Of a stretch of DNA of 64,000 nucleotides, positions 52,209 through 56,951 are shown one piece after another. The number at the start of each line of letters is the position of its first letter. The stretch's first letter is position 1. Source of the stretch: Salinirussus salinus (GTDB taxonomy: Archaea; Halobacteriota; Halobacteria; Halobacteriales; Haloarculaceae); assembly GCF_009831455.1 (NCBI RefSeq), contig NZ_WOWO01000004.1, positions 620,001 through 684,000 on the forward strand, written 5' to 3'. Below the pieces are notes generated by a model. That model worked only from the letters and a program-made list of their open reading frames with translations. It made no database searches and had not been told where the DNA came from. Made by a program: the position numbers and the translations under genes.

Positions 52209-53693
52209 TCAGTCGTCGGTCGGCGCGCTCTCGGTACCGACCTCGCCGGCGTCGGCGTTTGCCTCCGTGAGGTCGCCTTCCCGCCAGGTGCCGCGACGGT
52301 ACCACGCGTAGGCGAGCGTCGCCCCGACGACGTTGGAGACGGCGAAGGCGACCCAGATACCCGTCTCGCCCAGCGGGGTCGCGGCGACCCACGCGACCGG
52401 GAACCGGACGACGCCGAGCGTGGCTACGGAGATGGCCGCCGCCGTGAGCGTCTTGCCGGCGCCCCGGAAGCTGCCCGTGTAGGCCCGCATGATGCCGATG
52501 AACCCGAAGGTCAGCGCGACGACCCGGAGAAAGGCCGTGCCGACCTCGACCACCCGGTCGGCGTTCTCCTGCCCGGCGCCGACGAACACCGAGACGACCG
52601 GCTCGGGGACCAGGAAGACGAGGATCCCCCCCAGCGTGAGCACGCCGAACAGCACCTTCGCGGCGAGGGTCGCGGCTCGCTCCGCGCGGTCGGGCTTGCC
52701 GGCGCCCATGTTCTGGCCGGTCATCGTCTCGACGCCGCGGGCGACGGCGATCGCCGGGAGGAAGACCACCGAGAAGACGCGGGTCCCGATGCCGTAGGCG
52801 GCGACGACGGGGTCCGGGAACATCGCGACGATGAACAGCAGGAGGTTCATCGACAGCGCGCGCCCGGTCCCCTCGACCGAGGCCGGCACGCCGATCCGGG
52901 CCAGTCGCCGGAGGTAGTCGAGGTCGGGCACCATGTCGCGGAGGCGGATCCGGACCCCGCGCGTCCCGCGGAACATGACCGCGAGACCGACGACCAGCGC
53001 GAGCCCGCGCGAGAACACGGTCGCGACGGCGGCCCCCTGGATCCCGAGTTCGGGGAAGGAGACGGTGCCGACAAGCGGTGCGTTCTCGACGACCGTCCAC
53101 CCGAAGATCAGGAACGGGTCGATGACGATGTTGAGCACGACCGACCCGAACATGACGAGCATCGGCGTTATCGTGTCGCCGTAGCCCCGCATGAGCGCGA
53201 CGAAGACGAAAAAGCCGAACATGAAGACGAGCCCGAGCGAGATGACCTCCATGTAGCTGGCGGCTCTGGGCAACACGTCGGGCGAGGCGCCCATCAGCTC
53301 GAGGAACCGCTCGACGACGAAGTAGCCGCCGGCGCCGAGCAACACGGACCCGATGACCGCGAACGCGACGGTCTGCGAGGCGGCGTACTCGGCCTGGCGC
53401 TCGTCGTCGGCCCCGGTGTACTGGGCGACGAGGACGCTCCCGGCGACGGAGACCCCCATCCCCAGCGAGATGAGCAGGAAAACCATCGGGAACGCGAAGC
53501 TGATCGCCGCCAGCGCGTCGGTGCTGTACTGGCCCAGCCAGAACGTATCGGCGAGGTTGTACGCGGTCTGGAAGAGGTTCGTCACGACGATCGGCATCGA
53601 GAGGAAAAACAGCGGCTTCCCGATCCCCCCGGACGTGAGGTCGAACTCCTCGCGGCCCCGGAAAAGCGACCGGACGCGGCTCCACGGGCCCAT
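52209..53693 (-). CDS. MATE-family efflux transporter
   Basis: This 494-residue protein has 12 predicted helices in two six-helix halves and the MATE/MatE pattern LSMPIVVTNLFQTAYNLADTFWLGQYS near the N-terminus and TGQNMGAGKPDRAERAA at the mid-loop. It exports drugs or metabolites in exchange for Na+ or H+. The ATG at 53693 overlaps the TetR stop by one base (TGATG), so it is translated from the TetR transcript. The regulation and operon layout are those of a classical TetR-repressed efflux system. Confidence 0.9.
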   Translation of the reverse strand: MGPWSRVRSLFRGREEFDLTSGGIGKPLFFLSMPIVVTNLFQTAYNLADTFWLGQYSTDALAAISFAFPMVFLLISLGMGVSVAGSVLVAQYTGADDERQAEYAASQTVAFAVIGSVLLGAGGYFVVERFLELMGASPDVLPRAASYMEVISLGLVFMFGFFVFVALMRGYGDTITPMLVMFGSVVLNIVIDPFLIFGWTVVENAPLVGTVSFPELGIQGAAVATVFSRGLALVVGLAVMFRGTRGVRIRLRDMVPDLDYLRRLARIGVPASVEGTGRALSMNLLLFIVAMFPDPVVAAYGIGTRVFSVVFLPAIAVARGVETMTGQNMGAGKPDRAERAATLAAKVLFGVLTLGGILVFLVPEPVVSVFVGAGQENADRVVEVGTAFLRVVALTFGFIGIMRAYTGSFRGAGKTLTAAAISVATLGVVRFPVAWVAATPLGETGIWVAFAVSNVVGATLAYAWYRRGTWREGDLTEANADAGEVGTESAPTDD

Positions 53694-54298
53694 CAGCGAC
53701 CCGCCTCCGTCGCCGCGGAGCGGGCGCCGTCCGTCGACAGTAGCTCGACGTACTCCTCCACCGCGCGGTAGCGCTCGTCGGCCGGCCGGTCGGCCACGAC
53801 GCCGCGCGCCCGCGCTCCCTCGACCAGTGTGGCGAGTCGCTTTGCCGCACGACCCGGGTCGACCGCGTCGTCGAATTCGCCGCACTCGATGCCGTCCTCG
53901 ACGACCGCCTCGAGCCGGTCGACGAGGAACTCGTCGAACCGCCGGAGGTGGTGACGGACGGTCTCGTCGTACGGCGCCTGCGCCCGGACCTCGAGCAGGG
54001 CGGTTCCGAACCCGGGACCGGCGTGGGCCCCGTCGTCGAGCACCAGCTCGAGAAGCGAGTGAAGCCGCTCGCGTCCGGGCGTGCCGTCGACCGAGCTGGC
54101 CGCCTCCGTGTACCGCTCGTAGAGGTAATCGAGAAACGCCGCGAACAGTTCGTCCTTGCCGTGGTAGTGGTAGTGGATCGTGGCTTTACTCCTGTCCGAC
54201 TCCGCGGCGATGTGTCTGAGGGTAAGGTCAGCGTATCCGTGCCTGCAGAGCGCCCGGTGGGTCGCCGCGAGGAGCTCGTCGGCTGGCTCGTCGCTCAT
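53693..54298 (-). CDS. TetR-family transcriptional repressor (TetR-1)
   Basis: This 201-residue protein has an N-terminal TetR HTH (about 8-55: ATHRALCRHGYADLTLRHIAAESDRSKATIHYHYHGKDEL) and a helical ligand-binding domain. It is the first gene of an operon with the MATE pump and probably represses it. Its operator is a perfect 14-bp palindrome (54315-54328) 17 bp before the ATG. The HTH is closely similar to that of TetR-2 (55573-56178), including the GYADLT and IHYHY segments, so the two may bind the same sites. Confidence 0.92.
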   Translation of the reverse strand: MSDEPADELLAATHRALCRHGYADLTLRHIAAESDRSKATIHYHYHGKDELFAAFLDYLYERYTEAASSVDGTPGRERLHSLLELVLDDGAHAGPGFGTALLEVRAQAPYDETVRHHLRRFDEFLVDRLEAVVEDGIECGEFDDAVDPGRAAKRLATLVEGARARGVVADRPADERYRAVEEYVELLSTDGARSAATEAGR

Positions 54299-54312: not shown

Positions 54313-54343
54313 TTACTAACTAGTTAGTCAAATATCTTTGGAA
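54313..54343 (-). promoter_or_regulatory. TetR operator A, promoter of tetR-MATE operon
   Basis: The core actaactagttagt (54315-54328) is a perfect 14-bp palindrome. It sits between the TetR-1 ATG (54298) and a TATA-like atattt (plus 54330-54336 read on minus). The 31-bp stretch matches operator B (55458-55488) at 25 of 31 positions, by hand count. The position would let a bound TetR dimer block initiation. Confidence 0.7.
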
Positions 54344-54380
54344 CTCCAGTCGCTCCGGCGGGGCCCGTAGCCGGCGTGGC

Positions 54381-55244
54381 TCACTTCGCGGTCTCGACTT
54401 CCAGCCACGGCACCTCGACGAGCGGCGGGATGTGGGTCTCGATGTGGTGTTCCCACACCCCCTCTTCGCCGAAGGCCTCGCCGTGGTCGGCGGTGACGAC
54501 GACCCGCCCGTCGAGCTCCGGAACCAGCTCCGCGACGGCCTCGAGCACGATGCGGAGGTTCTCCTCGTAGAGCTCCATGGCGGCCTCGCGGGTGCCGTTT
54601 CGGACCACGGCAAGGGGGTCGAGTTCGAGCCACAGTCCCGATTTCTGGACCAGCTGGCTCCCCTCGAGGAGGCGCTCGACTCTCGGCCGGACCCGGTCGG
54701 CCAGCCTCGTGAGGAGCCCGCCGGTCGACCCGTCGTCGGCCTCCCCCTGCTTTCGGATCCCGCTCTGGATCCGTCTGAGCTTCTGCCCGCTCCCGCGGGA
54801 GAGATACGGCGCGTGTGGCTGCATGTAGTGGACGACCGTGCGGTCGGCCCGGTCGACGATGTCCTCGTGTCCCCGGAGCGACGACGCGAGACTCCCCGGC
54901 GGGACCGTCCCGAGTTCGTCGTCCCAGCCGTGGTCCCACACGTCGACGACCTCGTCGATGTGCTCGTTGGCGGTCCACTCGTAATCGCAGCTGGCTCCCC
55001 ACTTCAGTTCGTCGAGCGCGATCCCGAGGTCGTTGATGAAGGGGTTCCCGGACAGGTAGGCGATGTCGTGACTCCCGGTGAACGTCCGGGAGGCCCACTC
55101 CGGCGTCGACGACCCGATGCTGCGCCGCTTCTCGAGCGTCCCCGCGAGGTAGTCGTCGTAGAGCCGGCTGAACACGTCGTAGCGACACGCGTCGAGCACG
55201 AGACAGTAGTCCCACTCGGATTCGAGAAACCGGTGCTCTTCCAT
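54381..55244 (-). CDS. Alkaline-phosphatase-superfamily (sulfatase-like) protein
   Basis: This 287-residue protein has an N-terminal metal-site strand WDYCLVLDACRYDVF (about 10-25), a nucleophile-region candidate STPEWASRTFTG (about 46-57), HYMQPHAPYL and VVVTADHGEAFGEEG, the second metal site. The fold includes sulfatases, phosphatases and phosphoglycerol transferases; the substrate is unknown. Similar haloarchaeal proteins lie in surface-polysaccharide clusters. ATG 55244 has a ggaggaggagg run nearby. A longer frame runs to GTG 55457, but that codon touches operator B and probably lies upstream of transcription start; GTG 55268 is another option. Confidence 0.72.
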   Translation of the reverse strand: MEEHRFLESEWDYCLVLDACRYDVFSRLYDDYLAGTLEKRRSIGSSTPEWASRTFTGSHDIAYLSGNPFINDLGIALDELKWGASCDYEWTANEHIDEVVDVWDHGWDDELGTVPPGSLASSLRGHEDIVDRADRTVVHYMQPHAPYLSRGSGQKLRRIQSGIRKQGEADDGSTGGLLTRLADRVRPRVERLLEGSQLVQKSGLWLELDPLAVVRNGTREAAMELYEENLRIVLEAVAELVPELDGRVVVTADHGEAFGEEGVWEHHIETHIPPLVEVPWLEVETAK

Positions 55245-55457
55245 CCGCTCAGCCTCCTCCTCCGACACCGGTCGGCTCCGACGCCCGTCCCGACCACGGG
55301 ATGTCGGGACGACACCGCGGTCTAACCGACTGCCGGTCCGATACTCCCCGCTCCGCTGCTGCCGTCCTGTTCTGACCCATTGGTACTGGTTTGTCGCGAC
55401 CGGCTTGAATGCCCGGGTACGTGCCGGTCGTCGCTGGTGTGTGTTGCAATACCACAC

Positions 55458-55488
55458 TTACTGACCAGTTAGACAAAAGGCTTTGGAA
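55458..55488 (-). promoter_or_regulatory. TetR operator B, promoter of the phosphatase-like gene
   Basis: This 31-bp segment matches operator A, with the core actgaccagttaga and the flank caaa..ctttggaa. By hand count 25 of 31 bases agree. It would drive the leftward phosphatase-like gene and suggests shared control with the tetR-MATE operon. The TetR-2 gene starts 85 bp to the right, so autoregulation of TetR-2 is also possible. Confidence 0.65.
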
Positions 55489-55572: not shown

Positions 55573-56178
55573 ATGGCCGACCCGCCGGACCGCTCGTTCT
55601 CGGACGCCGAGGAGGAGATCATGCAGGCGACCTACCGCGCGCTCAGCGAACACGGCTACGCCGACCTCACGGTCAAACGGATCGCCGCGGAGTACGGCAA
55701 ATCGACTGCCGCCATCCACTACCACTACGACACGAAAGACGACCTGCTGGCGGCGTTTCTCGACTTCCTTCTCGACCAGTTCACCGACGCGGTCCACGAG
55801 GTCGAGACGACCGACCCCGAGCGGCGCCTCGACCTCCTGCTCGACAGGCTGCTCGTCGACCCCGAGGACCACCGCGACCTGCTGGTGGCCACGCTGGAGA
55901 TGCGGAGCCAGGCGCCGTACAAGGGGGCGTTCGCCGAGCGGTTCCAGCAGAACGACGAGTACGTCCGGTACCTGCTCCGGACGGTCATCGACCACGGAAG
56001 CGGGGAGGGAGTGTTCCGGGAGGACGCCGACGCGGAACACGCCGCCCGCGCGCTCATGACGGTGGTCGACGGGGCCCGGACCCGGGCGGTCGTCCTGGAC
56101 GACACCGACGCCCTCGCGACCGCCAGACGGACGGCGGCGGAGTACGTCTCCGCCGTGCTGGTCGCCGACGACGACTGA
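55573..56178 (+). CDS. TetR-family transcriptional repressor (TetR-2)
   Basis: This 201-residue TetR regulator is a paralogue of TetR-1: AT[YH]RAL..HGYADLT..RIAAE....AAIHYHY.[TG]KD.LLAAFLD aligns over the whole HTH. A leaderless promoter is likely, with catatttacc (about 55546-55555) some 20 bp before the ATG. It is divergent from the phosphatase-like gene. The ligand is unknown. It is not followed by an efflux gene, unlike TetR-1. Confidence 0.9.
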   Translation: MADPPDRSFSDAEEEIMQATYRALSEHGYADLTVKRIAAEYGKSTAAIHYHYDTKDDLLAAFLDFLLDQFTDAVHEVETTDPERRLDLLLDRLLVDPEDHRDLLVATLEMRSQAPYKGAFAERFQQNDEYVRYLLRTVIDHGSGEGVFREDADAEHAARALMTVVDGARTRAVVLDDTDALATARRTAAEYVSAVLVADDD

Positions 56179-56865: not shown

Positions 56866-56951
56866 CTACTCGAACAGAGCGGACACGGCAGATTCAACTC
56901 CTGCACTTACTATACAGCAGATATATACCGGTGCCGGGAAGCGGGCCGCGG

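Follow-up and report, generated by a model that had tools for sequence, protein, structure and literature searches.

The 64,000-nucleotide window of Salinirussus salinus DNA analyzed here contains two similar 31-bp boxes among two TetR-type repressor genes, a MATE efflux pump gene and a phosphatase-like gene, raising the question of whether these genes are controlled through a shared operator. A preliminary description had proposed a local regulon of this kind, coupling efflux to a surface phosphatase or sulfatase activity. As it had claimed, 54313-54343 and 55458-55488 are identical at 25 of 31 positions on recount, and the match is beyond chance, the best match in shuffled intergenic sequence being 21 of 31 (40 trials). 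The first box contains the described perfect 14-bp palindrome, ACTAACTAGTTAGT, and the core common to both boxes, TTACTNACNAGTTAG, is matched exactly at these two places and nowhere else in the genome.

Two of the genes, tetR1 (53693-54298, minus strand) and tetR2 (55573-56178, plus strand), encode proteins of 201 aa in which both TetR_N and TetR_C_6 score above the Pfam cut-offs, placing them in the TetR family. Their scores against the BetI model TIGR03384, 41 and 54 bits, are below the equivalog cut-off of 201, and both proteins also fall under the curated cut-offs of bacterial TetR efflux families. The pump gene (52209-53693, minus strand) belongs to the MATE family according to Pfam MatE (PF01554, 197 bits, E 1e-58) and TIGR00797 (235 bits; cut-off 147). 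Because the stop codon of tetR1 overlaps the start codon of the pump gene, the two are considered one operon. A search for defence systems at the locus gave no PADLOC match. TetR1 and TetR2 had been described as paralogs with near-identical helix-turn-helix segments; they are paralogs with similar recognition helices (SKATIHYHY and STAAIHYHY), but the whole helix-turn-helix segment is not near-identical, and overall identity is 43%. TetR2 is far better conserved than TetR1, its recognition helix being nearly constant among orthologs (STAA(I/V)HY(H/Y)Y). Along its whole length it is an ortholog (E 1e-89) of the TetR-family 'transcription regulator' in PDB entry 3CRJ, whose source organism we take to be Haloarcula marismortui.

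The organization of the boxes becomes clearer from the relatives of tetR2. TetR2 orthologs (56-81% identity) occur in many haloarchaeal genera, their genes being divergent to tetR1-MATE or to a MATE gene alone. Among 59 different upstream regions of tetR2, 53 have the operator when at least 14 of 18 matching positions are required, against 0.08 expected, which shows the conservation with tetR and MATE genes across haloarchaea that had been named as support for the earlier proposal. A broader sampling of genomes (Halorubrum, Natrinema, Halobacterium, Halosimplex, Halopenitus and others) gave 29 tetR2 loci, most of them again in the order MATE-tetR1-operator-tetR2. In many genera the upstream region consists of the tetR1 or MATE start, 15-20 bp, TTACTAACTAGTTAGTCA, AAAnnCTTTGGAA, about 110 bp and tetR2, which on the minus strand reads as TTCCAAAGnnTTTTG (a BRE/TATA-like box), the operator, a short leader and the start codon. 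Because this layout is common to many genera, the 31 bp were divided into an 18-bp operator and 13 bp of promoter; the operator proposed earlier is thus genuine and shared, but shorter than the 31 bp assigned to it. The element is very probably a TetR-controlled archaeal promoter, in which a BRE/TATA-like box is followed by an 18-bp palindromic operator that a TetR protein would bind.

Predicted operator 1 (54313-54330, assigned to neither strand), TTACTAACTAGTTAGTCA, scores 35.0 bits with a matrix derived from orthologs and recurs as an identical 18-mer at the same place in many relatives. It is adjoined by the BRE/TATA-like part of the putative tetR1-MATE promoter (54331-54343; TTCCAAAGATATT on the minus strand), and the CTTTGGAA block next to the operator is conserved in relatives. 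An 18-bp palindrome at this promoter beside a repressor gene also agrees with the 15-20 bp expected of TetR-family operators. Predicted operator 2 (55458-55475, again without strand), TTACTGACCAGTTAGACA, lies between the phosphatase-like gene and tetR2, has one mismatch to the palindrome pattern and scores 24.8 bits with the same matrix; the BRE/TATA-like part beside it (55476-55488; TTCCAAAGCCTTT on the minus strand) repeats the block seen at site 1 and in relatives. Each box had been placed in the promoter of a leftward gene, which fits site 1, at 15 bp from the start codon of tetR1; from site 2 to the phosphatase start the distance is 213 bp, compared with 15-26 bp between operator and start codon at tetR1, MATE and the zinc-ribbon gene.

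A mere shared promoter motif, or a chance likeness of AT-rich promoters in a genome of 69% G+C, might also produce such a repeat, and the TTCCAAAGnnTTTTG portion of the 31 bp is indeed promoter-like. This explanation is scarcely credible, however, given that the palindrome occurs only once or twice per genome, nearly always beside TetR genes of this group, and remains near-symmetric even though its sequence differs from genus to genus. Searches of 146 genomes of the family gave 187 exact palindromes and 24 matches to the reversed control, and 29 of the 30 palindromes sampled have a TetR of this group, or its MATE, no more than 250 bp away. In the present genome (3.37 Mb), searched by pattern, TNACTRAYYRRTYAGTNA, the degenerate form of the 18-bp palindrome, is matched exactly at C4:674313 (site 1), C4:262531 and C1:79679. 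Site 2 has one mismatch to it, and two further sites, C1:79016 and C3:172483, have two each. Eight simulated genomes of equal size contained none at 0-1 mismatch and a mean of 2.5 at up to two. The three exact sites and one near-exact site agree with the few genomic copies that had been set as a check in advance, and in place of many unrelated copies a clustering at TetR genes of the group was observed. Core matches with one or two mismatches elsewhere (L003, L006-L010) were discarded, being within coding regions or unsupported, and their number is that expected at such a mismatch level. At C1:79679-79696 (L077:7680-7697) the palindrome is perfect (TGACTAATTAATCAGTAA, 31.2 bits) and is accompanied by a TATA-like box. 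The HTH_20 regulator gene that begins some 250 bp beyond it was not counted as a regulon member, its closest orthologs having no such site.

Other genomes point to a further target. There, a second operator lies beyond tetR2, before a convergent gene for a zinc-ribbon membrane protein of about 143 aa (DUF7575, with a weak TM2 match). In 18 of 18 close orthologs of the family, the operator is located 22-26 bp before the zinc-ribbon start codon, directly after a TATA-like box. TetR2 is present in all 18 genomes with a close zinc-ribbon ortholog and in 42 of 146 genomes overall, a co-occurrence with a chance probability of 7e-12, uncorrected for kinship. In other haloarchaea the zinc-ribbon membrane protein is thus conserved as a partner in the regulon, presumably controlled by TetR2. 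In the present genome its gene is unlinked, on another contig (C1:79042-79467), with a weak site at C1:79016 (12.8 bits). Another MATE operon begins with a third paralog, tetR3, and has a similar site at C4:262531. The regulon would therefore not be only local, but extend to the unlinked zinc-ribbon gene and tetR3-MATE. Distant zinc-ribbon paralogs (L202, L204, L206-L209, L211-L212) adjoin another TetR group, with a variant palindrome, TGACTGAACGTTCAGTCA, upstream.

These arrangements also bear on which repressor acts at operator 1. TetR1 might be the sole repressor there, with TetR2 acting on other targets, as tetR1 is the gene immediately after operator 1 in the MATE operon, and a TetR of the group occurs with a similar site, in the absence of TetR2, in the TetR3-MATE operons. 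The persistence of the operator in tetR2-MATE loci that have no tetR1, its position before the zinc-ribbon gene beside tetR2 and the much stronger conservation of TetR2 make this improbable. TetR2 is likely the main regulator, and TetR1 likely autoregulates its own operon. Judging from sequence comparison, we propose with good confidence that TetR2, probably joined by TetR1, acts as repressor of a MATE/zinc-ribbon regulon whose promoters are ordered as TATA box, operator and start, and that the phosphatase-like gene has probably been drawn in. A dimer of TetR2, probably acting together with TetR1, would bind the operator and block the start region just beyond it, keeping tetR1-MATE off until a toxic ligand of the pump releases the repressor. 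TetR1 would autoregulate the tetR1-MATE operon, and the same repressor would control the unlinked DUF7575 zinc-ribbon gene. As a genus-specific step, the phosphatase-like gene, lying between tetR2 and tetR1 with a second operator-promoter upstream, would have joined the circuit. We hold only tentatively a further reading, in which the two divergent TetR paralogs use a single operator in common, either in competition or as heterodimers, to run the efflux and zinc-ribbon regulon, the phosphatase-like gene being captured by the second operator-promoter copy; if true, a phosphatase/transferase-type enzyme would link efflux to the modification of some component of the cell.

The phosphatase-like gene (54381-55244, minus strand) encodes a protein of 287 aa. 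In comparison with the sister genome G145, the stretch between operator 2 and this gene (55245-55457, minus strand) diverges equally at all three codon positions and has frame-breaking gaps. Because of this codon-position divergence, the start was placed at 55244, behind a 213-bp non-coding leader with GGAGGAGGAGG about 14 bp before the start codon. A longer frame of 358 aa from the GTG at 55457 was rejected, its first 71 codons looking non-coding in the same comparison. The best 13 Foldseek matches of the predicted model (mean pLDDT 80) are all from the alkaline phosphatase superfamily, and D18, H139, H144, D253 and H254 are invariant in 22 sequences, with metal-site-like residues in DH-G-E and H-x4-H. 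Fold and invariant metal-site residues therefore bear out the superfamily named in the preliminary description; the match to Pfam Sulfatase is below the cut-off. The best PDB match is to the catalytic domains of EptA/MCR (E 9e-5), which have the same superfamily fold at about 12% identity and a TM-score of about 0.5. Unlike these transferases, the 287-aa protein has no N-terminal membrane domain and begins at the catalytic domain, leaving the suggested surface location unsupported.

Many haloarchaea have the phosphatase-like gene (124 of the 392 genomes in the order), and the operator is found at none of the 50 assessable orthologs outside the genus, 23 in the family and 27 more in the order. 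This rules out the gene as a conserved regulon member; the link is genus-specific, contrary to the expected conservation of its site across haloarchaea. In G124 and G097, TetR2 and the phosphatase-like protein are encoded at separate places, the latter with no site. Only G053 has a TetR beside the ortholog, 40% identical to TetR2 and lacking this operator; in that genome, the phosphatase ortholog, a zinc-ribbon paralog and the TetR gene stand in a row on one strand (L070:6224-8479). In G145, the alignment spans the phosphatase-like gene and the site up to 55541. The TATA-like CCTTTTATT beside operator 2 is retained there and the operator, at 5.9 bits, is decayed; the same flanking genes enclose neither tetR2 nor FMN-reductase/MATE/tetR1. 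On the simplest view, the operator-promoter of the phosphatase-like gene is older than the species split and decayed after tetR2 loss; alternatively, the operator may have been gained in the present lineage.

Operator 2 could instead serve tetR2 autoregulation or be a relic of an ancestral tetR2-MATE intergenic region, the phosphatase-like gene being a mere neighbour, which we regard as a serious possibility somewhat short of an even chance. The 115 bp from operator 2 to the tetR2 start resemble the 135-175 bp in relatives, some genomes have a second operator closer to tetR2, and both the long leader of 213 bp and the absence of the site from the 50 orthologs fit this explanation. Against it, the BRE/TATA-like part at operator 2 is kept in the phosphatase orientation, the leader has no other AT-rich promoter-like stretch by eye, and the purine-rich Shine-Dalgarno-like stretch before the start suits a leadered mRNA. 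We lean slightly towards transcription of the phosphatase-like gene from operator 2. The gene has probably been drawn into the TetR circuit in this genus, with operator evidence from one genome, and such a capture, if true, represents a small, readable case of regulon growth.

The regulon is real and conserved and, in the largely open-access literature searched, undescribed. It belongs to an ordinary type, efflux under the control of a repressor, with an extension specific to the genus. To our knowledge, few archaeal TetR regulons are known. The same literature reports no function, operator, regulon or ligand for 3CRJ, to which the present analysis adds a predicted operator and targets. A promoter layout is thereby also predicted for this solved but uncharacterised group of haloarchaeal repressors, the MATE pump is tied to a conserved zinc-ribbon membrane protein, and the regulon offers candidate inducible promoters amenable to work in culturable haloarchaea. 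As in bacterial TetR drug efflux systems of the TtgR, AcrR and MtrR type, a family-matched repressor lies beside a pump with a palindromic operator in its promoter; the present system differs in its archaeal TATA/BRE promoter, MATE pump, zinc-ribbon extra target and two divergent TetR paralogs that may meet at one operator. Another TetR regulator from an archaeon, FadR of Sulfolobus acidocaldarius, likewise has semi-palindromic sites and very few targets in its genome, but it controls fatty-acid genes, responds to an acyl-CoA ligand and has no efflux pump (PMC6449355).

Some further sites were observed. A fourth TetR paralog (L016:2105-3090; G000:C4 about 301000-302000) has a different recognition helix, SEAGLYYYY, and follows the genes for a SHOCT protein and for a monooxygenase-like protein in an operon headed by a different palindrome, TTAGTGAGTACTCACTTA; a code from recognition helix to half-site is possible. 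In a Halorubrum sp., an extra strong operator (L138:6297-6314, 34.2 bits) lies about 290 bp upstream of a squalene/phytoene synthase-like gene. Within the window, 56866-56950 is an AT-rich, divergent-looking gap between a HalOD1 gene and an HTH-10-type (bacterio-opsin-activator-like) regulator gene.
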